A DNA stretch of 64,000 bases. Origin: Acidovorax sp. GW101-3H11. Lineage in GTDB: Bacteria; Pseudomonadota; Gammaproteobacteria; Burkholderiales; Burkholderiaceae_C. The first letter of the stretch is position 1. Each line of letters begins with the position of its first letter. Position numbers and translations under genes: made by a program. The stretch covers positions 967,269 to 1,031,268 of the forward strand of contig NZ_LUKZ01000009.1 in NCBI RefSeq assembly GCF_001633105.1. The letters are read 5' to 3'. The notes under the pieces are model-generated. The model searched no databases. It was not told where the DNA came from and was given only the letters and a program-made list of their open reading frames with translations. Below are positions 19,346 through 33,374 of the stretch, in pieces.

Positions 19346-21814
19346 TCACTCCATGGGCACGGCGTCGGCATCTACCCGCAAAGCCTCCAGGTCGATCACT
19401 GCATCGGCCATGCCGGCCAACTCGGTCGTCTGAGAGACGAAGAACTCCCGGTGGTAGCCGCCCAGTCGCAGCACCTCGCGCTTCATCGCCCCGAACATGC
19501 GCTTTCGGTCCGGGTCGAGGGCCCCGTCTGCTTCATCCGAGAACAGGGTCTCGTAGCGCCGTTCTCCAGCCTGCGCCAAATACAGCGCCACCGCCCGCAC
19601 CAGGCATTCGTTGATCCAGACCCGCTCCCCTCCGCTCATCAGCCGCACACTCTTGCTCTCCCCTGAATCGGCGTCATGCACCAGGATGTCGAAGTCCTCC
19701 CGTTTCTCGCCCTTGGCCGTCTCCCCCTGCGTGAGGATGGAGACCGTGAAGCGCGGGCCGTAGCACGCCAGCAGCAGGTCGTTCGCCAGTCCCGACAAGG
19801 CCGGCCCCGCATCGTCGATCGCCAGCGCAATCAGACCATCATTGCTCATGCACCGCGCCAGCAGGGTCCAGTCGCCCATCGCGCTCTCGATCCGCAGGGC
19901 ACGCCGGCGCGCCGCAGCCTGACGTTGTGCCAGGGCATCCAGCTGTTGACGCAGCGCCGCCAGGCTCTCCAACTCCTTCAAAGCGTCTACGTGCGAGCGC
20001 TGTGCATTGCCATGCGCGGCGATGGCGCGATCGCGTGCCGACTCGGCAATGACCAGTTGCTGGGGATCAAAGGGTTCCGGCAAAGTGCTCAGGACGGCAT
20101 CCAGCCGGGCCAGCGCCTGCTTCAGCAGGTCGGACTGCTGCGTCCGCCGTGCGTCAATGGCCTGCATGGCGGCGGTAATGGCATCCCGCTCCTCCCGCTC
20201 GCCAACCGCTTCGGCCGAGGAATCGTCCCTCTCGGGATCTCCAAGGCCGTCCAGTTCGGCCTGGACCTCGGTCAGGCGCTGGCGCGCGACCTGAATCTCT
20301 TCCGCCTTCGCCGCCAGCAGGGCAAGTCGCGATGCGCGGCTGCGAGCGCGCTCCTGGCGATGCTCGGCGGCTTCCAATTGGCCGCTCGCGGCTGACAGCG
20401 ACTGGACACGCGCCTTGACGGACCGGCCCTCCCGCTCGACCTCCGCCTTCTCGTCGCCCAAACGCCGCAGCACCGCATCGGCGCTGGGAATCAGCGCCTG
20501 CGCCTCCCGCGCATCGGCCAGCAGCTGGCAAACTCCCTGCAGCGGCATCCCGGCGCACGGCACCTCGGCGGTCAGGCCCAAACGGCGCCTGAGTGCCTGC
20601 GCCTGCAAGACAGCCTGCCCTGCCTCTCGTTCGATACCCTGAACCCGCTGCACAAGGATGCGCAACTGGCCCTTGGCCTGCTCCCACTCCGCCACCTGGT
20701 CTCGGCGATGACGCGCACGCTCGGTGCGCAGTTCCAGCAACTGCTCTGCCAGCGGCAAACGCCGCAATGCGTTGTGCACCAGGTGCTCCTGCTCCAGCAA
20801 GGCATGGCACCGGCTCCGTACGTTCTCCAGCCGTTCTCGGCGCTGCAGGGCCTGCGCCCGCCGCTGCACAACGCGGCGCGTGAGCCGGTCCAGCCGCTGG
20901 CGTGCATCCTGTTCGCGACCCGCCAGGTCCTGCAGAACCACTCGGCCCGCTCCCTGCGCAGCTTCCCGCTCCTGCAACAACTGGCCTCGCCGCGCGTCGG
21001 CCTCGCGCGCCTGCTCGCCCTGTGCCGCGGCCCGGGCGTGGGCCTGGCGCGCCTCCTCCAGCGCCGACGCCGCCGCTGCCGCCGCCGCCTGCGTCCGGGC
21101 GGCACGCGCCGGCGCATCGGCGGCATCGACCCGCGCGCGGGCGAGCCGTTCTCCCTCGGCCTCCAAGGCAGAGGCCTCCTGGCGCAGCGCTACCAGCCCT
21201 GTCTTCAACAGCTTGGCGGTCTCACCGGCCTTGCGCCCCAGCTCGCGGATATGCTCCTGCCCCAGCAGGTCGGCCAGCAGCGTTTTGATCTCCGCGTTGC
21301 GGTAATCGCTGAGCTGGCGCTTGCACTGTGCTCCGAAGACCGACGTGAAGAAAGTATCGGCGCTGCCGCACAGGTGCTCCACGCAGCGCGTATAGGTGTC
21401 CACCTTGCCGTCCGACACCGTGCCATCCTCCAGTGTGACGGGGTGCCATGCGCCCGCATCGGAGAGTGCGAACAGGAAGGCCTCCGTCCGGCGCCGACCG
21501 TTGGGCCGGATCACGATCTGGGAACGATAGCTTTGGCCTTCGAGCGCCCAAACCAGATCCTTCTCGTTCTCCGGAAGGTAAACATGGTCGTAGTAGCTGA
21601 AGCCGCCCGCGCCCGCTGCGGACGCGCGCGAGGGCATCGTGAGGTACGGGTGCATGTTGTCGAGCACCGTGGTCTTGCCGCGCCCGTTGGCACCCACGAT
21701 GGCGACCAGCTCGGCCCCATCGCACAGGGCCTCGAAGTCCAGGGTCAAGGCATCCAGGCCCAGGCCATCCCGGATCCCGCGAAACCCCTTGAGCGTCAGA
21801 GAAAGTAGTTGCAT
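19346..21814 (-). CDS. SbcC/Rad50-like AAA ATPase
   Basis: An 822-residue SMC-like ATPase. The N-terminal half-domain has Walker A GANGRGKT at residues 41-48. A long Arg/Ala/Glu/Gln-rich coiled coil spans about 190-620. The C-terminal half has the signature VRLMSGGERVWINE and Walker B YETLFSDEADGALDPDR. At the coiled-coil apex the Rad50 zinc hook (CxxC) is replaced by PCAGMPLQGVCQLL, with two Cys eight residues apart. With the SbcD-like protein at 23424-24665 it could form an exonuclease for DNA ends or hairpins, for example in element replication or defence. GGAGAA lies nine bases before the ATG at 21814. Standard SbcC proteins are about 1000 residues, so the coil is short. Confidence 0.85.
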   Translation of the reverse strand: MQLLSLTLKGFRGIRDGLGLDALTLDFEALCDGAELVAIVGANGRGKTTVLDNMHPYLTMPSRASAAGAGGFSYYDHVYLPENEKDLVWALEGQSYRSQIVIRPNGRRRTEAFLFALSDAGAWHPVTLEDGTVSDGKVDTYTRCVEHLCGSADTFFTSVFGAQCKRQLSDYRNAEIKTLLADLLGQEHIRELGRKAGETAKLLKTGLVALRQEASALEAEGERLARARVDAADAPARAARTQAAAAAAASALEEARQAHARAAAQGEQAREADARRGQLLQEREAAQGAGRVVLQDLAGREQDARQRLDRLTRRVVQRRAQALQRRERLENVRSRCHALLEQEHLVHNALRRLPLAEQLLELRTERARHRRDQVAEWEQAKGQLRILVQRVQGIEREAGQAVLQAQALRRRLGLTAEVPCAGMPLQGVCQLLADAREAQALIPSADAVLRRLGDEKAEVEREGRSVKARVQSLSAASGQLEAAEHRQERARSRASRLALLAAKAEEIQVARQRLTEVQAELDGLGDPERDDSSAEAVGEREERDAITAAMQAIDARRTQQSDLLKQALARLDAVLSTLPEPFDPQQLVIAESARDRAIAAHGNAQRSHVDALKELESLAALRQQLDALAQRQAAARRRALRIESAMGDWTLLARCMSNDGLIALAIDDAGPALSGLANDLLLACYGPRFTVSILTQGETAKGEKREDFDILVHDADSGESKSVRLMSGGERVWINECLVRAVALYLAQAGERRYETLFSDEADGALDPDRKRMFGAMKREVLRLGGYHREFFVSQTTELAGMADAVIDLEALRVDADAVPME

Positions 21815-21959
21815 GGCGAAGTTCTCCATGGGTTTGACGCACCCAGTTTCCCGTGAGAGCCCGGGGAAGCAAGGGCTTGAGCGCCGTGGCCGCCCCTCCC
21901 CGGCACTCTGGCAAGAGGATGATCGAGTTATGCTGAAAAATTCCTTTTGCGTTCAATGG

Positions 21960-21988
21960 CTTATCGAAATCGACAAGAGAGGTAAAAT
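21960..21988 (+). promoter_or_regulatory. Promoter with overlapping operator for the AbiE-type pair
   Basis: CTTATCGA (21960-21967) and TCGACAAG (21970-21977) form an imperfect palindrome around AA. A -10-like TAAAAT follows at 21983-21988, and the palindrome occupies the -35 position 17 bp upstream. Overlap of operator and promoter just before an antitoxin gene is typical of autoregulation. Inference from layout. Confidence 0.5.
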
Positions 21989-22018
21989 CGTCCGTCAAGG
22001 ATCCTCCCTCCCACCGCC

Positions 22019-22420
22019 ATGAACACGCTCAATCGCATCAAACGCTCCGTCGCCAACCGCAGCGACGATGTGCTGCTGCGCAGCGAGTTCGACCAGTTCG
22101 GCAGTGCCGCGCAGGTGGGCCGCGCACTGCGCGAACTGGTGCTGGACGGCACGCTGGTGCGCCTGGGCCTGGGCGTCTATGCCAAGGCCAAGCCAAGCGT
22201 GCTGACGGGCAAGCCGATTCCGGTGCGGCCGCTGGAAGTCCTGGCCCCCGAGGCGCTGAACAAGCTGGGCGTGACCGTCATGGCCAGCCGCTTGACCGAG
22301 ACGTACAACGCCGGACACAGCACCCAGGTGCCTGCGGGCATCGTCTTCAACGTCGGCCGACGCCGCATCGCCCGCAAGCTGGGCTTCAACGGCAAGGCGA
22401 TCCAGTACGAACACGCATGA
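22019..22420 (+). CDS. AbiEi-like antitoxin / DUF6088 transcriptional regulator
   Basis: A 133-residue winged-helix protein. DDVLLRSEFDQFGSAAQVGR and ALRELVLDGTLVRLGLGVYA form the N-terminal winged helix seen in AbiEi antitoxins, which repress their own promoter. The C-terminal part (MASRLTETYNAGHSTQVPAG, GRRRIARKLGFNGKAIQYE) matches the DUF6088 build. It overlaps the next gene by 4 bp (ATGA), the classical antitoxin-toxin arrangement. The ribosome binding site is poor, and the start codon was chosen by domain fit. Confidence 0.75.
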   Translation: MNTLNRIKRSVANRSDDVLLRSEFDQFGSAAQVGRALRELVLDGTLVRLGLGVYAKAKPSVLTGKPIPVRPLEVLAPEALNKLGVTVMASRLTETYNAGHSTQVPAGIVFNVGRRRIARKLGFNGKAIQYEHA

Positions 22421-23382
22421 GGGTGCTGGCACCGCAGCGGCGGGAACTGATCGAGGCGCTCGTCGCTGAAGCCACTTCCGGCGGAATCACTGCGGGCCTG
22501 CTGGAAATGGACGAGCACCTGACAGATGCGTTGCGGGCCCTGTTCGCCTTGAGGCTTGAGGGTGTGCAACTATTGTTCTGTGGTGGCACCAGCCTGTCCA
22601 AGGCCTACGGGCTGATCGAACGCATGTCCGAGGACGCGGATCTGAAGGTGGTACTGCCGGATGCGGGCCAGGCCCCCCGCGCCGAGATCCGCCGCCGCCT
22701 TTCCGCGCTGAAAGCCCAGGTGGCCGAAACGCTGGCCGGGATCGGCCTGGTCGAGGACAAGGGCAAAGAGCTGGCCTTCAACGAGAACCGGTACTTCTGG
22801 AGTGAGTGGAGCTATGCGCGGCACTATGCATCCGCCGCGGGGCTGCGCCCTCACCTGCAGATCGAATTGACGGCACGCACTCCGGTTCTGCCTCCGCAGG
22901 TGCGCCGTATCACCACGCTGGCCGACCAGCTCGCCGGCCGCTCCGATCAAGCCTTCGAGGTCCCGGTGGTCGCCGTAGCCGAAACGGTCGCGGAGAAAGT
23001 CCTGTCATTCCTGCGCCGCTACGCACAGCATCGCGCCGGGCTCATGCGCCAGGCCTGGGACACGGCCCTGGTCCGGCATCTCTACGACGTGCATTGCATC
23101 CGCCAACGCCAGCCTGAGATGCTGAGCGCGGCGCGGCGGGCCTTTCCTGCGCTGGTCGCGGGCGACCAGAAGGAGTTCGGCACCCAATTCCCGGACTTTG
23201 CCACGGCCCCTCGCCAGGTGCTGAGCGGCGCGCTGCGGCAGGCCCGTGCGGACGCGAAGATCCAGGCGGAGTTCACCGGCAACCTGCTGCCGCTGGTCTA
23301 TGGGGGCGGCACACCGGCATTCGCGCAGGCTTTCGGCGACTTCGACGCAGTCGCCGAAACGCTGCTGGAAGTGCTGCCGTAG
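22417..23382 (+). CDS. AbiEii-type nucleotidyltransferase toxin
   Basis: A 321-residue DNA polymerase beta-like nucleotidyltransferase. LLFCGGTSLSKAYGLIERMS followed by EDADLKVVLP carries the GGTxLSK...RxSxDxD motif, with the metal-binding acids. A later strand LQIELTAR supplies the third acidic position, and VAVAETVAEKVLSFLRR holds the family's conserved Lys. AbiEii toxins add nucleotides to tRNA 3' ends and arrest growth, some giving abortive phage resistance. It is translationally coupled to the antitoxin. The pair is on the plus strand between the minus-strand SbcD-like and SbcC-like genes. Confidence 0.82.
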   Translation: MRVLAPQRRELIEALVAEATSGGITAGLLEMDEHLTDALRALFALRLEGVQLLFCGGTSLSKAYGLIERMSEDADLKVVLPDAGQAPRAEIRRRLSALKAQVAETLAGIGLVEDKGKELAFNENRYFWSEWSYARHYASAAGLRPHLQIELTARTPVLPPQVRRITTLADQLAGRSDQAFEVPVVAVAETVAEKVLSFLRRYAQHRAGLMRQAWDTALVRHLYDVHCIRQRQPEMLSAARRAFPALVAGDQKEFGTQFPDFATAPRQVLSGALRQARADAKIQAEFTGNLLPLVYGGGTPAFAQAFGDFDAVAETLLEVLP

Positions 23383-23423
23383 CCCTGTCCACCGGACGCG
23401 TCAAGCCGCCAGTCGCATGGGTT

Positions 23424-24665
23424 TCACGGGCTGGTTTCGGCATCCCGCTCGCGCAAGAGATCCGCTGCAATGTCCTCGGGCGTCGCTTCCTCCAGCGCGG
23501 CAAGGCATCTCACCAGCGGTTCGGGGTTGACCTCGGACACCTGGGCCCAGGCGCGCAGCTTGTCCTCCATCCTCGCCATGCGCGAGATGCCGGCCATGCG
23601 CGTGCGCACCACGGGCACGATGCGGCCCTCAAGCTTGGTCTCCGCGGCGCCGGCAAGGATTCGTTGGATGGCCCCGCGATCCACGGATCCCCGATCCTCC
23701 TCTGCGACGGTCCAGCGCACGCGCACGCTGGCACCGGCGATGTCCTGCCGTGCAACCGCTTCGCGCAAGGCGTCGAGATCCGGGCGGCCCTCGAACACGA
23801 TATCCATGGTCCGGCGCGCCGGAGTGGGCTCCAGGGTGCAGCAGGCCGAATCCGTGCCCACTTCCCACAGCAGAAATCCCTTCTCCCCTTCTTCTCCATA
23901 GTGAAAGCGGCCGATGGAACCCGCATAGCCGATCAATTGCGCACCCGCAAGCCCCTGCTGCGCCCAGGTCTGGTGCTGGTGAATATGGCCGAGCATGAAA
24001 GCCTGGGCCTCGGCGGCAAACAACGCCCCGGTCGTGAACTCATGATCGAAACCGGCCATTGGCACACCGTGCTCGCTCACGCAACCGAACACCGTGCCGT
24101 GGGACACGCCGATGGTGGGCAGTCCTCGGCTGCGCGCGATCCGGTGTGACGGCGCAAAGCCGCGGAGCAGCCGGGCGAGTTGCTCTCCCACAGCCTGCGC
24201 CGCGTGCGTCGCCCCGGCGGTAGCCGCCACGGTCGCCTTGTTGACGGTGGGCAGACAGGAGAACAGCGCTACAGCACGGACCGGTAAAGCGCCGAAACGC
24301 CATTGCGGGGAAGCGATCCAGTCGCCCTCACGGGTCAGGGCCACCTGCTGGATCCGGTCGGCCACGTGAATCGGGTGGCGCCCACCGACCGAGCGGAAGA
24401 CGTCCAAGGTACCCGGGGGCTCGTGCGAGTAGGTACCCTGCAACAGCAGCACCGGGCAATGATCGGCCAAGCGCCGCACCCGCTCCACCAGCCGCGCTGC
24501 GGCGGGCGAATGCAGGTCCAGCGCGTGATCGGTCGCGTCCCCGGACATCACGGCGGCCTGCGCCCCTTGCGCCACGGCCCGCTCGATGGCAGCGCCGAAG
24601 CAGCGCTCGGCCTCGTCGAGGGTCCTTGTTCCATAGTGCAGGTCGGAAAAGTGTGCGATGCGCAT
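23424..24665 (-). CDS. SbcD/Mre11-like metallophosphoesterase
   Basis: A 413-residue nuclease-like protein. MRIAHFSDLHYG (Asp8, His10), SGDATDH (Asp43, Asp46), a GVSHGT histidine and GHIHQHQ are the phosphodiesterase metal motifs. The usual GNHD block reads QGTYSHEPPG (about 76-85), so the metal-binding Asn is missing although His81 remains. Activity may be altered or another residue substitutes. GAAGGAG precedes the ATG at 24665. It is the last gene of a minus operon (DUF1173, RDF-like, SbcD-like) and is separated from its presumed partner, the SbcC-like gene, only by the AbiE pair. Confidence 0.8.
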   Translation of the reverse strand: MRIAHFSDLHYGTRTLDEAERCFGAAIERAVAQGAQAAVMSGDATDHALDLHSPAAARLVERVRRLADHCPVLLLQGTYSHEPPGTLDVFRSVGGRHPIHVADRIQQVALTREGDWIASPQWRFGALPVRAVALFSCLPTVNKATVAATAGATHAAQAVGEQLARLLRGFAPSHRIARSRGLPTIGVSHGTVFGCVSEHGVPMAGFDHEFTTGALFAAEAQAFMLGHIHQHQTWAQQGLAGAQLIGYAGSIGRFHYGEEGEKGFLLWEVGTDSACCTLEPTPARRTMDIVFEGRPDLDALREAVARQDIAGASVRVRWTVAEEDRGSVDRGAIQRILAGAAETKLEGRIVPVVRTRMAGISRMARMEDKLRAWAQVSEVNPEPLVRCLAALEEATPEDIAADLLRERDAETSP

Positions 24666-24676
24666 GGTCTTCTCCT

Positions 24677-25975
24677 TCAAGCACCCAGGCCCAGCTCGGC
24701 GTCGATCTTGTCGAGGTAGCCTTCCGGGTCTTGGGCGTACCTGTCGAGCTCGTCCCACGCACGACCGCGGCCGTGGGGATTGATCCGCCAGCCATGGCCC
24801 CAGCGCAAGGCCGCGTATGCGGAGTAGCGCTCCGTATCACCACCCATGGCCCGGACGCGCGCCAGCAGTTGCGCGAGCGTAGGTCGCGCCTGCTCCAGAC
24901 GCGGATGGCCGGCACCGGCACCGGCGGGCGCATCGGCAGTTTCGCCTCTCCCGGCCTCCTCGCCCGTTCCTGCGTCCTGATGCGCCTCGGGCTGCCCTTC
25001 GAGCACCTGGGTTGCAAGATGGGCCTGCTGGATCGCCGTCTCTTCATCCTCGTGCTCGCGCAGCAGGGCCGTGACATCCACGGGGGCCTCCAGTTCGATG
25101 ATCCACTGGGGCACGCGCACCGCCCGCCCCTGTTCGTCGATGTGCGGCACATCCCTGAGCACCTTCGTGAGGAAGAACGTTGCGCGGTCGCGCCCCAGGA
25201 AGCCGGAGATGCGCCCGCCGCGCATCATGGCCATGGCCTGGAAGCGCTGGATGGCCGCGCTCATCGCGTAGAAGCTCGTGGTGGGAAGCTCCAGCGCGCT
25301 GATGGAACGGATGCCGGGAATGAAGAACAGGAACCGGCCCGTGAGATTGCACTGGCGCGCCTGGTACTCGGGGCAGGATTCAGGATCGCAGAGGCCACCG
25401 TTCTCTTCACGCAGCACAGCCTTGCGCCCGCCAAAGATACGGATCGCGCGCCGCCCCGTGTCGTCCACCGGGACCGGTGCATGGCGCATGCAGTGGCGCA
25501 CCAGGCCATCGGGCGAGTACTGCGACCAGAACCGCTTCTCATGGGTGCCCCAGGCCGCCAGCTCGTGCGGCATCACGGTCTGCCAGTGGTCGGAGGGGAA
25601 GACGACGGGAAAACAGTAAAGACGGTGGCCCTGGCCTCGATCCTCGCCGTAGGCATCGAGGATCTCCCGGGCGGTCTCCGGGTTCGCGAAGTCCGACGCT
25701 CGCACCGTGAACCAGGGCACGTTGCGCGGCACCAGCGGAGACTTGAGCTGCGGCATCGCCTGCGCCAGCCGCCGTTCGATCTCCTCGAAGGACCGGCCCT
25801 CGTCCACGCCCTGCCTGTAGATGGCCTTGGCCTCGGGATGCTCGGCGGCCTTGCGGGTCAGGACCATGATGCCGGGACGGATTTTCCCCCCGGTGGGGAT
25901 GCGTGCCGGGGCCTGGCCCAGCAGGGTGTGCAAGGCGACCGGCCCGCCCTGCACCGAAACGACAGCGTTTGCCAT
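24677..25975 (-). CDS. Recombination-directionality-factor-like / metal-binding hypothetical protein
   Basis: A 432-residue island protein. GKIRPGIMVLTRKAAEHPEA near the N-terminus and FTVRASDFANPETAREILD resemble the Gp3-like family, in which phage recombination directionality factors (phiC31 gp3) are found. Related island proteins have also been labelled hydrolase or metal-binding. A Cys cluster CDPESCPEYQARQC around residue 200 (C-x4-C-x7-C) may hold zinc. The region after residue 300 is acidic and low-complexity, then a short conserved tail follows (WDELDRYAQDPEGYLDKID). AAGGAG lies six bases before the ATG at 25975. Eleven bases separate it from the SbcD-like start. If it is an RDF, it would bias the element's integrase toward excision. 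Confidence 0.55.
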   Translation of the reverse strand: MANAVVSVQGGPVALHTLLGQAPARIPTGGKIRPGIMVLTRKAAEHPEAKAIYRQGVDEGRSFEEIERRLAQAMPQLKSPLVPRNVPWFTVRASDFANPETAREILDAYGEDRGQGHRLYCFPVVFPSDHWQTVMPHELAAWGTHEKRFWSQYSPDGLVRHCMRHAPVPVDDTGRRAIRIFGGRKAVLREENGGLCDPESCPEYQARQCNLTGRFLFFIPGIRSISALELPTTSFYAMSAAIQRFQAMAMMRGGRISGFLGRDRATFFLTKVLRDVPHIDEQGRAVRVPQWIIELEAPVDVTALLREHEDEETAIQQAHLATQVLEGQPEAHQDAGTGEEAGRGETADAPAGAGAGHPRLEQARPTLAQLLARVRAMGGDTERYSAYAALRWGHGWRINPHGRGRAWDELDRYAQDPEGYLDKIDAELGLGA

Positions 25976-26115
25976 GTGGCGCTCCTTCATGAAACGTCGG
26001 GGTTGCGACGCTTCATGCTCTCGCGTGATGCCAAGTGTTCAACCCCCGGCAGCAAGGCTTCCAGCCGACTGCCCCGTCCGGTCATGCACCGCCGGGAGTA
26101 CGAAAGGCAAGCGAA

Positions 26116-27402
26116 CTAAGCCGCCGGTGATGGCAGCGCGGGCATTGGCTGCTCAGTCCGCCACGCCCAGCATTCACCTTTGGCGACGGCCTTCTCCTTG
26201 GCGGTACGCTCCTTGGCCCCGGCAAACGCACTCACTATGTGCAGTGGAATGGGCGTGGCACCGCCGTCCAGCAACAGCGCATTCGGAAAGACTCCACCCT
26301 GCGGCGCGTCGTAGCGCAGCGGCTTGAGAAAGCGCCTTTCCTGTCCGACAAGCGCATCGATCAAAGGGCACTCGTGGCCGCCCTCCAGCGGTATCCATTG
26401 ATCGCTTGCCAGCATCAGGCTAGCCGAATCGATCTCGTAGGTCAATTCGCGGCGGGCGCGTATCAACGCCGCGATCATGAGCCGGATCCGACGTTCGGTG
26501 TCTGCGTCGCGCGCCTCCAGCAAGGAAGCGTGAACACGCGCCAGGCGCTCCCAGCTCTTGGTGGGCATCAGCAACGGCGCATCGGGCATGTGGCGGATCC
26601 AGATCCGGCAGGCGTGCTCCGCACGATCGCAGGCCTTGAACTCGCCGATCACCAACGCCAATGGCGCATGCCCATCGCGGGGCTGCAGGATGGCCAGCTT
26701 TTCCCGTCGGCGCTGGGCGGCATCAGCCTTGGTGGATTCCTGGAATGGCTCGGGGACATAAAGACGCTCGGCCAATGGGATGCCCTTGACATCGATGTCG
26801 GCCGCCGCAGCGAGCAGGTACTTGCACAAGACACCCTGGTTGCGCTTTCCAGCCATGGCGGGCGTCCACCGGTTGAAGCCGGCACGCTCGAAAAGAAAAT
26901 GCATCACGGCGCGAAGCGACATGCGCCGTCGCGGAACTGTGATCTCTGCCGGCTCCGAGATCTCGCCCCTTGGCAGGGCGTGGCCCTGGGTCCTGGTCCA
27001 TGGGAAGTCCACGCGCAGTTCCACTCGACCAGGCTCAGGCTCCAGCACGGCTTCTCCCACGAGTTCGCCCAGCCCGGAAAGTGCCGCGTCGGGTTCATAG
27101 GAAGGGCAGGACGGGTGATGGTCCTTGCCGGTTTCTGGCATGCGTTTGACCACGTACTTGCGATGGCGGGCCACATACATTTCCACACCACCGGCGACAC
27201 ACAGGCAACGCGGCCGCTCAGCATCGTCATGGATCGACGCAAGCGCCAACTGGAGGCCCGGATCCGTGGCTGTAAACACACGGCCGTGGATTGAGAAGTG
27301 CTGCACAGGGAACACCGGCAGGCCGCCGTCGCTACTCGTTGCCGCCGCACTTGGTTGCAAGCCATTTCTTCCTGGACCATCAAAGAAAATCTGTTCCTGC
27401 AT
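26116..27402 (-). CDS. DUF1173 family protein
   Basis: A 428-residue protein. The family signature lies near residues 65-100: RCLCVAGGVEMYVARHRKYV followed by VKRMPETGKDHHPSCPSYEP, with Cys and His residues suggestive of metal binding. A helical central part (MSLRAVMHFLFERAGFNRWT) and a segment AGKRNQGVLCKYLLAAAADI follow. DUF1173 proteins are common on plasmids and integrative elements but have no established biochemical role. The ATG at 27402 has GGGGAAGG upstream. An upstream frame extending to 27534 lacks domain support. A 7-bp inverted repeat lies 77 bp upstream (27479-27499). Confidence 0.75.
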   Translation of the reverse strand: MQEQIFFDGPGRNGLQPSAAATSSDGGLPVFPVQHFSIHGRVFTATDPGLQLALASIHDDAERPRCLCVAGGVEMYVARHRKYVVKRMPETGKDHHPSCPSYEPDAALSGLGELVGEAVLEPEPGRVELRVDFPWTRTQGHALPRGEISEPAEITVPRRRMSLRAVMHFLFERAGFNRWTPAMAGKRNQGVLCKYLLAAAADIDVKGIPLAERLYVPEPFQESTKADAAQRRREKLAILQPRDGHAPLALVIGEFKACDRAEHACRIWIRHMPDAPLLMPTKSWERLARVHASLLEARDADTERRIRLMIAALIRARRELTYEIDSASLMLASDQWIPLEGGHECPLIDALVGQERRFLKPLRYDAPQGGVFPNALLLDGGATPIPLHIVSAFAGAKERTAKEKAVAKGECWAWRTEQPMPALPSPAA

Positions 27403-27478
27403 GCTGCCTTCCCCGTTGAGGTCAATGCCACGAACCCATCCTGGACCTTCGTGACGCTCCAGGCGAGCCGGATTCGCA

Positions 27479-27499
27479 TCGAAATTGGTGAGATTTCGA
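27479..27499. promoter_or_regulatory. Inverted repeat before the DUF1173-RDF-SbcD operon
   Basis: TCGAAAT (27479-27485) and ATTTCGA (27493-27499) are perfect inverted copies with a 7-base spacer. Part of the motif (TCGAAATCGA) recurs in the AbiE operator near 21964-21973. Plausible repressor site for the minus-strand operon. Confidence 0.4.
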
Positions 27500-27639
27500 C
27501 ATTGAAGGCGCAGAAATTTTCCGAGGTCAAGCACGCCTCGATCGCCTCATGCGGGAAGCCTCTCTCCCACTAGGTGACCACCAATAGGACAACCCGCACA
27601 CCGTAAATAGGCAAAGCAAAGCATGCGGCCCACTCGCTC

Positions 27640-29175
27640 TCAGCCAGTCACGGCATCCGCGTTTTGCATCGACTTGCCATTTACCAGCATCCGCTGAAGG
27701 TAGCCCAGCAAGGCCTGCCATTCTTGGCGCGAGAAATCTGCCAGATGAGCGTTCTGCACAACGGCCAAAATGGCCGGCACCTCGGCAACGGCGCTCTCCC
27801 CTGCTTCCGTGAGCTGGACATGGATAACGCGCCGATCCTCGACGCTTCTCACACGCTTGCAGAGGCCCTTCTTCTCGAGTCGGTCAAGAGCCCGAGTCAC
27901 GCCGCCCGCGTCCATTTCGAGGTCCTGCGCGAGATCAGCTACCGTTGGCCGCTGGCGGGCCTTGATCTTCACAAGCGGTCCCCACTGGGTGCTTGTCAGT
28001 CCGTGCTGATGGAGGCGCATGTCGGCGTTCCGGACTATCGACGTGGTAACGCGGCGCATCAAGTAGCCGACGGTCTCTTCCTGGTAGTAGCCAGAGGCTT
28101 CATAGAATTCAATCGGCACAAGGTTGTCTCCCATGCGAGAAGGATCGCGGAGGAACTGGCCTCCATCCCCGTACAACGGACGGCGAAGTTCGCCAGGCGG
28201 CGGAGCATGCGCTTGTACATCCCTCTCCAAGTCTGCGCCCCCCACACCTTCGTCCGGCCCGATAGCACCGGCGATTTCATCCCAGTCGGAGTCCAGCAGA
28301 TACCGCCGCGCCGCCAACAGGATCCGCTCAACTTCATCCGCGTGCCGCATGCCCCCGCGGACGCCGCTCGCGAGCGATTGCAGTTGTCCCAACGCTGCCA
28401 CGTTTCCAAGGGATACCGCCTCGGCGATCTCCATGAGCTTCAAACCCAGTCCATGTTCGCGGCAGTGCCGCTCCTCCAAGCAGGACAGAACCTCGATGAG
28501 TTCCGGCTTGCGCTTCCGCAACACGCCGTACAAATGCAACTCTCCATTGGCGCACAAGAGGTACTGCGGGACATGCTGGACACACAACCGGATTGCGTCG
28601 AAATCAACGCTCGGCTGCCCGTTGCCGGCGGCGTCAAGCACGGCCAGCGCCCCGAGCATGCCAATGGCAAACGCACGATGCGAGCTCAATAGGGCGGCAA
28701 CGGTTCGCTCCTGGACAGTGGGAACCTCGCTGGATGCAACGCCCGTGACGAGCAGTGCCGTCGGCGCGCTCCGAAGAACCTGCTCCGTGCAGAACTGGAA
28801 ACTCCAGCCTTGCGCTCCTGGGCATCGTTGCGGCGCCATCACGATGACGTCGCACCCCTGGAGCTTGGCGGCCGCGCCAACGGCCTCAGCGAGGTGGGCC
28901 GACACCACAGCCAATGACGCGCAGCGAACACCACGTGCCGCCGCGCTCGATCTCGCGCTCGACAAAACTGCATCGGAATCCCCGAAGGCCGCGCGCAGCA
29001 GCGTACTAGCCAAGGCTGTTGAGAGTGCGGTGACGCCCCGCGTCGCGGCCGGATCTGGAGCGGCATGAAGGAAGGTGATTTTCGCATTCAGCTTCTCAGC
29101 CAAATCGATCGCGGCTTTCACGTTTTTGTCCGATGCCGACGTTCCATCAACGGGTACCAAAAAATGCTCATACAT
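27640..29175 (-). CDS. UspA / hemerythrin-like / MarR three-domain fusion regulator
   Basis: A 511-residue protein with three recognisable parts. Residues 1-145 are UspA-like (MYEHFLVPVDGTSASDKNVK), though the ATP-binding G-x2-G-x9-G motif is not evident (APQRCPGAQGWSFQF). Residues about 150-305 align with HHE hemerythrins: SSHRAFAIGMLGALAVL, FDAIRLCVQHVPQYL, SCLEERHCREH and MRHADEVERILLAAR. The HH pair of HHxxE is Cys-Ala (CANGE), so two iron ligands are lost. Residues about 355-505 are a MarR winged helix (GLTSTQWGPLVKIKARQRPT, AGGVTRALDRLEKKGL, a VRSVEDRRVIHVQLT wing). AGGGA precedes the ATG at 29175. It may couple stress, redox or ligand sensing to transcription. The target is unknown. 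It lies just downstream of the recombinase-like gene. Confidence 0.8.
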   Translation of the reverse strand: MYEHFLVPVDGTSASDKNVKAAIDLAEKLNAKITFLHAAPDPAATRGVTALSTALASTLLRAAFGDSDAVLSSARSSAAARGVRCASLAVVSAHLAEAVGAAAKLQGCDVIVMAPQRCPGAQGWSFQFCTEQVLRSAPTALLVTGVASSEVPTVQERTVAALLSSHRAFAIGMLGALAVLDAAGNGQPSVDFDAIRLCVQHVPQYLLCANGELHLYGVLRKRKPELIEVLSCLEERHCREHGLGLKLMEIAEAVSLGNVAALGQLQSLASGVRGGMRHADEVERILLAARRYLLDSDWDEIAGAIGPDEGVGGADLERDVQAHAPPPGELRRPLYGDGGQFLRDPSRMGDNLVPIEFYEASGYYQEETVGYLMRRVTTSIVRNADMRLHQHGLTSTQWGPLVKIKARQRPTVADLAQDLEMDAGGVTRALDRLEKKGLCKRVRSVEDRRVIHVQLTEAGESAVAEVPAILAVVQNAHLADFSRQEWQALLGYLQRMLVNGKSMQNADAVTG

Positions 29176-29190
29176 GTCCGGCATCCCTGC

Positions 29191-30132
29191 TCACACCAGA
29201 TCGCGCGTCAGCTCTTCCATCGTGTGCTGCCGCCGTGGAAACTGCTCTTTCACCGCACTACGTTCAGCGATTCCCAACAGCAGGCCCACCTGCGCCTCAT
29301 CCGCGCCCCGGGTATAGAGGCGGTCGGCCACCGTATGCCGCGCGGTGAGCGCTGTGACCTGCTTAAACTCGGCATAGCGGAACAGCTTGCGATAGGTCTC
29401 TTGGATGCCGCGACACCGGAAGCGGCGCTGCCCCGCCTCTCCGTACGGCGTGATCTCGAAGCCCTTGCCGCTGGCGGACAGGAACAGGCGGCTGCCAGGC
29501 GCCAGGCCACGGTACTGGCCTTCCACACCGAGTCCGGCACCCCACCGCACACGATCGGCGAGATAAGCGTTCATGGCTTCGTTCAGCCGCGTGCTGTGGA
29601 AGTACAGCGGCCGCGCCCGGGAGGTGATAGCGGCCTCCTCGCGCAGCACGGAGATCCGCCGCACGCTCCCTGCGGCGTCCAGATAGTCCCGTACCTCGAG
29701 ACGCGCGATCTCCAACGGCCGCGCGCCGATCGCGAACAGCATGTAGTACAGCGCGAGGTCTTCCAGAGGGTGTTGGCTGCGACCCCGGATCCGCACGGCG
29801 CCGGCGGCGATCTCCGCCTCACTCAGGATGGGCGTGCCCACGGCCCGCTCCGCGCCAGGGGGCTGCAGGCCGTCCAGCGCAGTCTGCAGCGCGTCACGGT
29901 GCAGGCGCAGCCTGCGAACAAACGCCGCACCGCTCTGATTCAGCCCGTCGATTCCGGCGCTGCCGGCCAGGTGGGTCGCCACCGCCTTGATGCGCCGCTC
30001 GACGGCCGTGCGCGACACCCCGTGCAGTGCCGCCACGGCGTCATAGGCCGCCCCGTCTAGCACCGCGCGCAGCATCGCCACAGACACGTCCCACGATGGC
30101 CGGGGATCGCCGGAGAGTTCCTGCTCTTGCAC
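29191..30132 (-). CDS. Degenerate tyrosine-recombinase-like protein
   Basis: A 313-residue protein with the layout of a phage-type integrase. The N-terminal half is helical DNA-binding-like (ALHGVSRTAVERRIKAVATH). GARPLEIARLEVRDYLD matches the box I Arg region, and LTARHTVADRLYTRGADEAQ matches box II. The expected His before Arg is replaced, and the C-terminal GH...Y block reads LLGIAERSAVKEQFPRRQ, with Phe where the nucleophilic Tyr belongs. It is therefore probably catalytically dead as a recombinase, or a recombinase-derived DNA-binding factor. The GTG start has GGAGG nine bases upstream. Its position at the right end of the island fits an integration-module relic. Confidence 0.55.
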   Translation of the reverse strand: MQEQELSGDPRPSWDVSVAMLRAVLDGAAYDAVAALHGVSRTAVERRIKAVATHLAGSAGIDGLNQSGAAFVRRLRLHRDALQTALDGLQPPGAERAVGTPILSEAEIAAGAVRIRGRSQHPLEDLALYYMLFAIGARPLEIARLEVRDYLDAAGSVRRISVLREEAAITSRARPLYFHSTRLNEAMNAYLADRVRWGAGLGVEGQYRGLAPGSRLFLSASGKGFEITPYGEAGQRRFRCRGIQETYRKLFRYAEFKQVTALTARHTVADRLYTRGADEAQVGLLLGIAERSAVKEQFPRRQHTMEELTRDLV

Positions 30133-30613
30133 GCCGCGTGCCTCCTTTCAAGGCAATCACACCACGAACGCATCCTGACGCCCCGGTACGCGCCGCGCCA
30201 GCCGAAATCGCGTCGCAGTCCGGGGGGTTTCGGAATCAACTACCGAGATGCACAAGGGCAATGCCTCACAACCTGATCGCATTGCCAGCCTGCACTCCAT
30301 GGGATCAGCAGCGAGCCGTCGAATACCAGCGCCGCGATCACGAGGCAAGCCCTTCGGTGAGACAGACATAGGAATCTTTTCGCATGACGGCGACTGCTTG
30401 ATGCTGTGCCGTACAAGCGCATGCGGCTCGGGCACCGACTGCATGGCGTTGCGCGTCGATGGCTTGTTCCTGGCGCTCTCACTCACAGCCAGCCCCTTTT
30501 TTTGACGCGGAGCAACAGCCTGTCGAATGCACAATGCACCGGCTGCGATCTCGTCGTCGCTGACGACACGGATGCTTCGCCCCAGAACCACCTAGCCCTT
30601 TTCAAGCAGTAAG
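30133..30613. other. Intergenic boundary region, no supported gene
   Basis: About 480 bp between the recombinase-like gene and the DUF1329 gene. A minus frame (30157-30591) starts reasonably (MVLGRSIRVVSDDEIAAGAL) but degenerates into low-complexity sequence with no ribosome binding site. No tRNA, attachment repeat or terminator was recognised. It likely contains the island's right edge. Confidence 0.35.
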
Positions 30614-31972
30614 TTAACGTGCGGTTTCGCGGCCAACTACCGCCTCAGGATTGAGCTCGCGCTCGCTGCGCGGAGTCTCAATCTGCTTGAAGCCGCCAAT
30701 CATGGCGTCGTTCAGGTACGCGTACAGGCCCCTGCTGAAGTCGTACACCACGTTCTTGACAGACCAGGGAATGTCCAAGTCGTACATGGGAGTGGTGGTA
30801 TTGAACATGACTCGCGCCAACTGCCCCTCTTGGTCGAAAGCATCGAACATGCCAGCTCCGGAAAGATCCTCGTCAAAGTAATACGTCCGGCGTGGATATG
30901 CATGACGCTGGCCCGAGCGCAAGACCGCATCCACCACCCAGACCCGATGCAACTCCCAACGCTCGCATGCTGGGTTGGCATGGCGGGCCATCAGCGCAAC
31001 TTCTGGTACGGGGCAGTCGTAGGTCGCCTTGTAGCCGTTGTAGGGAATGAGCATTTCCTTCTTGCCGAGCAGCTTGAAGTCAAAGCGATCCATCATTCCG
31101 GAGAAAACAAACAATTCGTCATAGACGATGACACCGCCCATGCTTGCCACCGGCGTGTCATAGGCAAATTCGGGCGCGAGCTTCACCCGGCGCTGGCCCG
31201 GCGTATAAGTCCACGCCTTCCGGGGCCTGGCGCTGGGATCCAGGTAGTCGGCCAAACCTGTCATTTCACCTACCCTGCGGGCCGGCGACTTGGTGACGGA
31301 ATAGACCCGCCAGGCCATGGTGGGATCACGATCTTTCTGATCCAGTTCGTAGTAAGGAAAATTCTGATAGGTCTGCTGTTCCGCTGTCTTAATGGGCCGG
31401 CCGTTGGCATCCACCACCCAGGATCGCGAAGACATGGTGACCATGTCCTTGCTGCCCTGGTAGCGCAACTGCTGGTTCCACATCACCTCGTGCCCCGTCT
31501 TGGGAATCGGGAACGGCATGCCGCCACGGCAGGCCACGTCCACCGCCAAGCCGTCCTTCAGGCTGCGGCAACTGGTGGCGTTACGCCGTGTCGCAGCCAA
31601 GACCGCGTCGGGGTAGGCTACAGTGCGGTGGCTCGGGTAAACGTCCAGGTAGTACTCCGGGAATCGGGCCAGCAACTGCCGCTGGCCTTCCGAGAGCTTG
31701 TCGGCGTACCGCGCCATGTTGCGTGCGTCAATGCGGTAAAGCGGTTTCTCACCTTTGAACGGATCGACCCAAAAACCGCTGCCCGGCTTGTGTCCGGCAG
31801 GCGCGCTTCGGAGCCCCCCGGTATAGGGCGGAATGCTGCCGTCGGCATTGCCGGCGCGCACCGCGCCGAACTCTGTCAGGCTGCTACCCAATTGGCGGGC
31901 CTCCTCAGGAGAGACTCCTGCTGCGGCGGCGAGGTGCACGGCCAGCAGTGCCAGCGAAAATATACGGCGCAT
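30614..31972 (-). CDS. DUF1329 family exported protein
   Basis: A 452-residue protein. The signal peptide MRRIFSLALLAVHLAAAAGV precedes a mature domain with the DUF1329 features DPFKGEKPLYRIDARNMARY, YPSHRTVAYPDAV and a long beta-rich C-terminus (RWELHRVWVVDAVLRSGQRH, AYPRRTYYFDEDLSGAG). DUF1329 proteins adopt a LolA/LolB-like half-barrel and are usually encoded with DUF1302 and exporter genes in clusters for steroid, terpene or hydrocarbon metabolism. They are thought to handle hydrophobic compounds in the envelope. No DUF1302 gene is adjacent here. The start was chosen at the ATG (31972) giving an intact signal peptide. It lies 59 bp downstream of the periplasmic binding protein gene on the same strand. 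Confidence 0.83.
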   Translation of the reverse strand: MRRIFSLALLAVHLAAAAGVSPEEARQLGSSLTEFGAVRAGNADGSIPPYTGGLRSAPAGHKPGSGFWVDPFKGEKPLYRIDARNMARYADKLSEGQRQLLARFPEYYLDVYPSHRTVAYPDAVLAATRRNATSCRSLKDGLAVDVACRGGMPFPIPKTGHEVMWNQQLRYQGSKDMVTMSSRSWVVDANGRPIKTAEQQTYQNFPYYELDQKDRDPTMAWRVYSVTKSPARRVGEMTGLADYLDPSARPRKAWTYTPGQRRVKLAPEFAYDTPVASMGGVIVYDELFVFSGMMDRFDFKLLGKKEMLIPYNGYKATYDCPVPEVALMARHANPACERWELHRVWVVDAVLRSGQRHAYPRRTYYFDEDLSGAGMFDAFDQEGQLARVMFNTTTPMYDLDIPWSVKNVVYDFSRGLYAYLNDAMIGGFKQIETPRSERELNPEAVVGRETAR

Positions 31973-32031
31973 GGTCACGATCCAGTCAAACGAAAAGATG
32001 AAAGACGATTGGGTGATAGAAGGGTGCCGAC

Positions 32032-33162
32032 TCAGCGCATCAATTGCCCATAGCGCGATCGCACCCCCACGTCCACCCAGTCGGAGCCCTGGTTGCGCTG
32101 GCGCGCGAAGCTCACGCTGAAGCCGCCCAGATCCAGATCGTTGAGCTGCGATAGCGTGGCAGCCACTGCCTCGGGCGTGAGACGCGGCGTGCGGCGCAAG
32201 GCCTCTACCAGCACCCTGGTGTTGATGTAGGCCTCCATGCCCACGAATGTCACCGCGTGGCCCGCGCCGTAGGTGTCCATGTTCCTTTGGAACTCCTGAA
32301 CCAGGCGCAGATTGCCCGCCTCCGGATTGGGCACCACAGTGGTGAAGCCGAAAAGACGGCCCTTGAAGCCAGCCAGTAGCGTGTTGAGGTGAGGACTCGC
32401 CAGCGAAGCGATAACGCGGGGCCATTCCTCCCGTGCCCCCAATTGAAGATCCACCAAGGCCTCGGCCGTCGGCAGTTGCAAGGCAAGCACGGCCCCATGA
32501 AAACCCTCCCCGCCCAGGGACTTGATCAGCTTCTGCACGCTGTCGCCCGGCAAGCCGACAGGAACGGCGAGCACGGTGGCGGTCATACCCTCCCCGCCCA
32601 TGGCGCTCTTGAGCGCTGCGACCGATTCGCTTTCCGGCGCGTCGGTGACGATGGCGACCCGAAAGCAGGCGATGGCCCTGAACTGCCGGGCCAGGGCCTC
32701 GGCCTCACGCGCGCTGCTGGCCCGTACCTGGAACAGCCAGGGGGCACTGCTGCGCGCCAAGGCTGAGGCCCCGCTCAACGGCCCAACCAAGGGCACCTTC
32801 AGTACTGCCGTGACTGCGGCGGAGGCCCGGCAAGAAGCCTCGCCCTGACAATTGAGCAAGGCCACCGCCCCACGCTGCGTGATCAGCTCGCGAACATTGC
32901 GCTCGTGCTTGCGCGGATCACCATCGTCGTTTAGCGTGACCAAATCAAGCCGACGCCCCTGCACGCCTCCGGCTGCATTTACGCCGTCTATGTACCCTTT
33001 GGCCGCAGCCATGACCCGCAATCCGCCGCCGTCCGAATCGGGCCCGATGTTCAGCGACTGGCCCAGGACGATCACGTCGGCGCCAAGCGCCACACTGCAC
33101 CACACCAGGCCCGCCGACAAAGCCACCGCCAGGCGCCGATACCCACTATTCACATTCCGCAT
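32032..33162 (-). CDS. Branched-chain amino-acid-type periplasmic binding protein (Peripla_BP_6)
   Basis: A 376-residue secreted solute-binding protein. A signal peptide (RLAVALSAGLVWCSVALG then A) leads to ADVIVLGQSLNIGPDSDG, the usual first strand of LivJ-like receptors. AAAKGYIDGVNAAGGVQGRR followed by LDLVTLNDDGDP is the most conserved family block. A Cys pair (NCQGEASC) may form a disulphide. No ABC permease or ATPase genes follow, so this orphan receptor may serve a distant transporter or act with the neighbouring chemoreceptor. GAAGGAG is 11 bases before the ATG. An AT-rich promoter candidate lies upstream (33375-33401). Confidence 0.85.
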   Translation of the reverse strand: MRNVNSGYRRLAVALSAGLVWCSVALGADVIVLGQSLNIGPDSDGGGLRVMAAAKGYIDGVNAAGGVQGRRLDLVTLNDDGDPRKHERNVRELITQRGAVALLNCQGEASCRASAAVTAVLKVPLVGPLSGASALARSSAPWLFQVRASSAREAEALARQFRAIACFRVAIVTDAPESESVAALKSAMGGEGMTATVLAVPVGLPGDSVQKLIKSLGGEGFHGAVLALQLPTAEALVDLQLGAREEWPRVIASLASPHLNTLLAGFKGRLFGFTTVVPNPEAGNLRLVQEFQRNMDTYGAGHAVTFVGMEAYINTRVLVEALRRTPRLTPEAVAATLSQLNDLDLGGFSVSFARQRNQGSDWVDVGVRSRYGQLMR

Positions 33163-33374
33163 AGTGCGGGTCTCCTTCGTGTTCTTGTTAGGACAAGCCG
33201 CTACCCATGAGAACCAGAGGCTGAGTGCAGCGCGTCAACCGCATCCCAGAGAGGTCGGAGGAGCAATGCATGCGGCTACCGCGTGCGCCTTCCTTCCTGA
33301 CCGCCGACCTTGCTATCCACCCGGTGGGGACCGTCCGCACCGCCTCTCTAGACAAAGGGACAGCGGCATCAAAA

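Follow-up and report, generated by a model that had tools for sequence, protein, structure and literature searches.

A rare fusion of Usp, degenerate hemerythrin-like and MarR domains in a genomic island of Acidovorax sp. GW101-3H11

Introduction

MarR proteins are generally small and sense within their own fold. A MarR-type gene is also known from an integrative element, ICEclc, where it belongs to the mfsR-marR-tciR operon; according to the abstract of that study, MfsR and TciR are the active regulators, and MarR has no clear role (PMC4063739). For hemerythrin domains, 56 architectures have been reported among long O2-binding sequences; the terms MarR, Usp and universal stress do not occur in the main text of that survey (PMC4919030). 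Judged by title and the start of the abstract, none of the open-access matches listed has an HHE-MarR or Usp-HHE-MarR protein as its subject, which agrees with the original prediction for the locus described here, namely that its Usp-HHE-MarR layout is not known from a described regulator.

The present study characterised a gene located in a 64,000-nucleotide stretch of the Acidovorax sp. GW101-3H11 genome, hereafter the window, for which a fusion of a stress-protein domain, a hemerythrin (HHE) domain with missing iron ligands and a MarR DNA-binding domain had been proposed. Its domains, metal-ligand positions, relatives, selective constraint and genomic neighbourhood were analysed and compared with a second copy of the fusion in Simplicispira metamorpha DSM 1837.

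Domain organisation of the fusion gene

The proposed presence of three domains in one chain was borne out: a single intact open reading frame on the minus strand encodes a Usp domain, a hemerythrin-like segment and a MarR domain, arranged as follows.

27640–29184, minus strand: Usp-(degenerate HHE)-MarR fusion gene, uninterrupted open reading frame, 514 amino acids from the first ATG
28747–29175, minus strand: Usp domain, residues 4–146 (Pfam PF00582, E 5e-14)
28273–28713, minus strand: hemerythrin-like segment, residues 158–304, matched by the homolog profile at 55–60 bits
28111–28272, minus strand: linker, residues 305–358, the least conserved stretch between the window and Simplicispira copies
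27661–28110, minus strand: MarR domain, residues 359–508, 53% identical to the efflux-linked MarR of the same genome

The likelier start of the protein is the fourth codon, at position 29175 (511 amino acids), because relatives align from M[YF] at this point; the start codons of these relatives were chosen by script, and we therefore infer the start rather than take it as given. The Usp domain lies above the Pfam cut-off for PF00582 (53.4 against 24 bits), and so does the MarR domain for PF01047, matched at residues 396–453 (E 6.5e-14; 52 bits against a cut-off of 24.6). The nucleotide motif of ATP-binding-type Usp proteins is G-2x-G-9x-G(S/T). A motif of this form was not found in the Usp domain of the fusion, where the region reads APQRCPGAQGWSFQFC and aligns with ASHG...GS in many relatives.

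Relatives of the N-terminal half

The N-terminal half resembles two-domain Usp-Hemerythrin (HHE) proteins of Burkholderiales, which have the same domain order, are 26–38% identical to the fusion over about residues 4–320, and carry a ligand-bearing segment that aligns with that of the fusion. The 22 Usp-HHE proteins examined are 307–382 amino acids long and end after the HHE domain, whereas the fusion continues into MarR. One of them is encoded in the same genome (L003, C9:1043471), with 31% identity to residues 4–307 and a Pfam Hemerythrin match of 6e-15. Residues 1–315 found a match at E ≤ 1e-15 in 18 of 399 sampled family genomes, own genome counted, two of which (G356 and G414) matched in the Usp part only. 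In the phylogenetic tree, which like that of the MarR half was midpoint-rooted and calls for long-branch caution, the N-terminal half grouped with seven Usp-HHE proteins (support 99/97) on a branch of 2.0 changes per column. Adjacent unfused parents were not encountered in the 16 larger Usp-HHE loci (L065–L080), none of which had a match to the MarR half at E ≤ 1e-3. DUF1329 genes lie about 3.6–5.3 kb from the Usp-HHE gene in five of these 16 loci (L072, L075, L076, L077 and L080), and the window, too, has a DUF1329 gene near the fusion.

The hemerythrin-like segment and its metal-ligand positions

The assignment of the middle segment to an HHE-type domain was upheld by comparison with homologs, though Pfam Hemerythrin (PF01814) gave no match at E ≤ 1 on the whole protein or at E ≤ 10 on the segment alone. 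With the query protein left out, a profile was made of the 22 Usp-HHE homologs; it matches residues 158–304 at 55–60 bits, and among 1,000 shuffled versions of the segment the highest score was 10.7 bits. All four profile homologs given to Pfam (L003, L013, L014 and L034, the last as the larger region L067) matched PF01814, at 6e-15 to 8e-12. Judged from this profile, the segment is hemerythrin-related despite the silence of Pfam. Structure prediction, of the full protein (four-row alignment; mean pLDDT 42, pTM 0.31) as of the middle domain alone (three-row alignment; mean pLDDT 45, pTM 0.31), returned helices at a confidence too low to read a four-helix bundle or any other fold from them.

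Ligand columns were read from a MAFFT alignment of the 22 homologs and compared with the HMMER register. The five candidate ligands of the fusion are listed below.

28678–28680, minus strand: His169, at the helix-A ligand column, where 21 of 22 homologs have H; kept here, Arg in Simplicispira
28552–28554, minus strand: Cys211, aligned with the second His of HHPKEE; Arg in Simplicispira
28540–28542, minus strand: Glu215, second Glu position of HHPKEE, kept in both copies
28465–28467, minus strand: His240, helix-C ligand position, kept (H in 22 of 22 homologs); Cys in Simplicispira
28342–28344, minus strand: His281, at the helix-D ligand column by MAFFT but not in the HMM register; Asn in Simplicispira

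Aligned to the 22 homologs, the fusion lacks the full hemerythrin metal-ligand set. The His pair of the HHPKEE motif on helix B (H in 21 and 20 of the 22 homologs) is replaced by Leu210-Cys211 in both registers, so that the Cys-Ala pair first proposed for this site was one residue off. Position 214, a Glu in 21 of 22 homologs, is Gly, and the column of Glu215 holds E in 15 and D in six of the 22. On helix D, the His column (H in 22 of 22) falls on His281 by MAFFT and on a Gly in the HMM alignment, and the two Glu positions, each E in 22 of 22, are occupied by Val285 and Glu286. Whereas the Usp-HHE proteins keep their ligands in 20–22 of 22 cases at most columns, the fusion has partly lost them: the predicted loss of iron ligands holds for both helix-B His, for Glu214 (Gly) and for the first helix-D Glu (Val285), and fails for His169, Glu215, His240 and possibly His281, which are still present.

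Ligand loss also occurs elsewhere in the Usp-HHE family, since a protein encoded on plasmid pBPHY01 of Paraburkholderia phymatum (L013, 3001–3858) is likewise without the HH pair; despite this, it matches Pfam Hemerythrin.

Occurrence of the fusion

The fusion protein is real and rare. With the full-length query, a single match spanning both halves was found in the own genome only among the 47 genomes of the genus (E ≤ 1e-20), and the own genome was again alone among 399 genomes sampled from the order (E ≤ 1e-25), 369 from the class (E ≤ 1e-30) and 299 from the phylum (E ≤ 1e-25); these sets overlap, all include the own genome and are samples above the genus level, and scoring in the larger groups was restricted to the few candidates per genome that ranked highest at first look. 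A scan of genome contigs returned three further carriers (L009, L010 and L011) and a Usp-only match in Variovorax. The Simplicispira copy (L010) shows the same fusion, with the same junction, linker and MarR start, at 77% DNA identity; it contains a frameshift and in-frame stops and is truncated, its similarity stopping at residue 399. The other two are contigs from MAGs, of which L009 is 98.4% identical to the window over 6.9 kb and spans residues 202–514, including the HHE-MarR junction, and L011 is 99.9% identical over 5.4 kb and spans residues 1–82. An assembly artefact or a recent deletion as the source of the fusion was rejected because the junction is shared with Simplicispira (at a dS of about 0.5) and because the two MAG contigs cover the gene. 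Apart from the copy in Simplicispira and the nearly identical pieces on the two MAG contigs, the sampled searches brought up no other three-domain protein.

Plasmids gave partial protein matches only, with coverage of the query short of 80% in all 64 records, and no near DNA match of 26100–33200. A phage or viral origin of the fusion was also considered and rejected, with no match in viral contigs by a pattern scan able to detect close relatives only, and none in phages with residues 1–312.

Selection on the fusion

Between the window and Simplicispira copies, the overall dN/dS was 0.41 (bootstrap 95% 0.30–0.55) and fell below 1 in 2,000 of 2,000 bootstraps. By region, it was 0.29 for the Usp part (0.17–0.48), 0.43 for HHE residues 156–305 (0.27–0.68; 0.48 with slightly wider limits), 0.60 for linker residues 306–358, which are 47% identical in the two copies, and 0.39 for the 39 codons of the MarR start, the last two with intervals reaching above 1. 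Over the 313 fusion codons that it has in common with the window, L009 differs by one synonymous and one amino-acid change.

The HHE segment is therefore under purifying selection while its metal-ligand pattern is broken, and this combination (dN/dS 0.43) supports the earlier suggestion that the fold was recruited beyond the standard diiron site for O2 or NO. At the positions of H169, C211, H240 and H281, Simplicispira has R, R, C and N, respectively, with Glu215 and the surrounding motifs unchanged; if positions are treated as independent, the chance of at least four of the five candidate ligands changing at 63% domain identity is about 0.07. The comparison is not a clean test because the reading frame of that copy is broken, and its substitutions may represent decay after inactivation. 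On a plain reading, the HHE part would be a scaffold under constraint whose metal site is not fully constrained, and the sequences favour, without proving it, a scaffold free of metal rather than a site built on Cys. The suggested use of Cys was accordingly weakened, Cys211 being Arg in the sole diverged relative, but that relative is frame-broken.

The MarR half and its efflux-linked relatives

No gap interrupts the alignment of the winged helix of the fusion with efflux-linked MarRs over the helix-turn-helix and the DRR wing, both of which are conserved. Query matches at E ≤ 1e-20 were present in 37 of the 47 genus genomes and covered the MarR half in 35, own genome counted in both; G003 and G046 match in the N-terminal half only. 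An outer-membrane efflux (OMF) gene flanks MarR in all 27 loci examined (L015–L032 and L056–L064). In the tree, the MarR half of the fusion clusters with some of the efflux-linked MarRs (support 98/95), in a clade that also pulls in one very long MarR branch from the own genome. The efflux-linked MarR of the own genome (C9:605158, L002), beside an OMF gene, is 53% identical and has the same MarR signature motifs. Such MarRs stand alone, and in 18 of 19 genus loci a conserved palindrome resembling an operator precedes the gene; around the fusion, the surveyed neighbourhood contains no efflux gene, and the window has no operator-like site of the efflux type.

The operator-like site upstream of the MarR-OMF genes of L002 and L015–L032 is near-invariant and palindromic, around AAGACAATNATTGTCTAGTCAATTA; the expression built around this sequence matched upstream in 18 of these 19 genus loci, L025 being a variant. 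In other genera, the sites take shifted forms around TTGCCTAGGCAA. The perfect core AGACAATNATTGTCT occurs once in the own genome, just upstream of the efflux-linked MarR, where the operator-like site lies at C9:605080–605094, and is absent from the whole window at up to three mismatches. The start of the recognition helix reads DAGGVTR in the fusion and DPASMTR in the efflux MarR of the genus.

Broader scans of the window were carried out with a weight matrix of a 14-bp core, composed of two distinct genus sites and ten cores picked by eye, whose best score (15.7) was exceeded by five of 20 block-shuffled windows; its fourth-best match (30144–30157) lies just upstream of the tyrosine-recombinase-like gene that precedes the fusion, with a score within noise. 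A relaxed 14-mer matched the window 19 times against 8.4 expected, a count reached by none of 100 shuffles. Because genome-wide matches are also about twice those of the control (68 against 31 for the reversed control, up to two mismatches), we read this excess as general palindrome enrichment and not as evidence of operators, a reading open to disagreement. The palindrome scan of three stretches gave one 7-bp inverted repeat. Altogether, palindrome, pattern and weight-matrix scans yielded no convincing operator near the fusion gene, and no sigma-70-like promoter was found in 27300–30700.

The island neighbourhood

The fusion is surrounded by genes of an island, among them the following.

29191–30132, minus strand: tyrosine-recombinase-like gene, directly upstream of the fusion (PF00589 below cut-off)
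26116–27534, minus strand: DUF1173 gene, downstream of the fusion; most related loci have it after their recombinase-like gene
24677–25990, minus strand: recombination-directionality-factor-like (Gp3-like) gene, also part of the island

The aligned recombinase-like family has no obvious catalytic Tyr. The stop codon of the recombinase-like gene lies 6 bp before the first ATG of the fusion and 15 bp before the likelier start, a spacing that suggests co-transcription of the two genes. Farther downstream are SbcD- and SbcC-like genes (weak NCBIfam matches, below cut-off), followed by an AbiE pair, in which AbiEii was found and the AbiEi partner is our own reading.

Of the 19 related recombinase loci, 18 could be tested for a DUF1173 gene no more than 1.5 kb downstream of the recombinase-like one: 13 have it there, five do not (L086, L087, L089, L096 and L097), and the remaining locus, L099, ends too soon. 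The gap to the aligned DUF1173 start is 0 to about 115 bp in 12 of the 13 and about 460 bp in L100. A separate count of 10 out of 10 in larger recombinase loci is biased, as these were picked after DUF1173 had been shown or hinted. The flanks of the 19 related recombinase loci contain no Usp or HHE match at E ≤ 0.01, and their sole weak MarR match (L087, E 0.006) falls inside the recombinase gene. Given this common order without Usp or HHE, the fusion gene is an insertion into it, between the recombinase-like and DUF1173 genes.

On the other side of the locus, the DUF1329 and periplasmic-binding-protein genes are 97% identical in DNA to Simplicispira, and etfBA 91%. Over 30484–33200, comparison with L010 gives 97% for the former genes and 77–91% for the genes flanking them; DUF1329 itself shows two synonymous and ten amino-acid differences over 454 codons. 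This patchwork of identities suggests recent exchange.

The module at 19346–30132, comprising the recombinase-like, DUF1173, RDF-like and weakly SbcD/SbcC-like genes, is found whole or in part in loci of other genomes of the family (L101, L104, L105 and L110), and might be a defence or mobility island. A catabolic cluster occupies 40882–63581 of the window, with extradiol-dioxygenase-like, acyl-CoA dehydrogenase, P450, flavin amine-oxidase-like, SDR, LysR and IclR genes.

Discussion

We give roughly even chances to the reading that the protein is a MarR-type DNA-binding regulator of a mobile island, in which a metal-independent Usp-HHE module has been joined to a MarR of an efflux lineage. Such a protein would have originated from the fusion of a two-domain Usp-hemerythrin protein to a MarR repressor of the OMF-efflux-linked lineage. 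Its MarR half is expected to form a dimer that binds a palindrome, as a rule for repression, and the N-terminal half would probably serve as a metal-independent input or as a dimerisation or assembly module, given a hemerythrin-like sequence that has been kept and a diiron site that has not. The protein would most plausibly act on the operon of its own island (recombinase-like, fusion and DUF1173 genes), with the efflux operator as second candidate if specificity has been kept; the chances of any specific target are well short of even. The domains, their fusion, the ligand substitutions, the selection, the gene neighbourhood and the relatives of both halves are direct results; DNA binding, repression, target, lack of metal and the kind of signal are inferred. 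In support of this reading we count the intact winged helix and its gap-free alignment, the OMF neighbours of the related MarRs, the groupings of both halves in the trees, the omega values of the HHE and Usp parts, the changes at four of five candidate ligands in Simplicispira, the close spacing to the recombinase-like gene and the frequent company of that gene and DUF1173. Counting against it are the absence of an efflux-type operator from the window, weight-matrix matches within noise, the lack of a sigma-70-like promoter in 27300–30700, the different start of the recognition helix and the broken frame of the sole diverged copy.

The state of the Simplicispira copy, frame-shifted, with in-frame stops and truncated, is also what would be left by an old island fusion that is decaying as cargo and has no selected role, and the long branch of the fusion among Usp-HHE proteins (2.0 changes per column) and the degraded glycine-rich region of Usp and HHE ligands are in keeping with such a loss of function. 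However, the window gene is intact across 514 codons, its overall omega of 0.41 (0.30–0.55) is below 1 in all 2,000 bootstraps, and the 313 codons in common with L009 differ by one synonymous and one amino-acid change; we consider decay unlikely, if with a real chance of being right. The same HHE ligands may be seen differently, as a rebuilt site (His169, Cys211, Glu215, His240 and perhaps His281) that still binds metal and switches MarR through redox, NO or metal sensing. The window copy does have two or three His at canonical ligand columns, together with a Glu and a Cys, and Glu215 is common to both copies, but H169, C211, H240 and H281 are all replaced in Simplicispira, the register of helix D is in doubt, and Val stands where all 22 homologs have the first Glu of that helix, so that metal-dependent switching appears quite improbable.

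As regards the target, the 53% identity of the MarR half to the efflux-linked MarR of the host, and the single perfect AGACAATNATTGTCT in the genome just upstream of that gene, would fit regulation in trans of the host efflux operon, with the fusion competing with the stand-alone MarR at the operator and the island acting as a carrier only. Yet the recognition helix starts differently, 53% identity is no guarantee of common specificity, and related MarRs in other genera have shifted operator-like sites, which together render control of the host pump distinctly unlikely. Our boldest proposal is an island-built stress switch, in which Usp and a metal-free pseudohemerythrin are placed over a pump-repressor domain, island movement or expression follows host stress, and cross-talk with the efflux operator is possible; we regard it as a long shot.

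Should the metal-independent regulator reading be true, a diiron sensor fold would have been reused as a metal-free regulatory part in a MarR protein with a large N-terminal module, and the fusion would become a candidate for coupling a genomic island to the stress of its host. Since relatives of both halves are encoded in the same genome, domain-swap tests would be easy.

Compared with described systems, the fusion resembles the MarR-type regulator of ICEclc in its location on an integrative element, a likeness drawn from the ICEclc abstract, which mentions no Usp or HHE part (PMC4063739). With the bacterial hemerythrin sensors of O2 or redox state it shares a hemerythrin-like domain within a multi-domain signalling protein, but those sensors depend on a diiron centre, whereas the ligand set of the fusion is incomplete (PMC9388753; PMC4919030). 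It is best filed as a variant of MarR regulators, equipped with a module from the Usp-HHE family in which the metal site is no longer intact.
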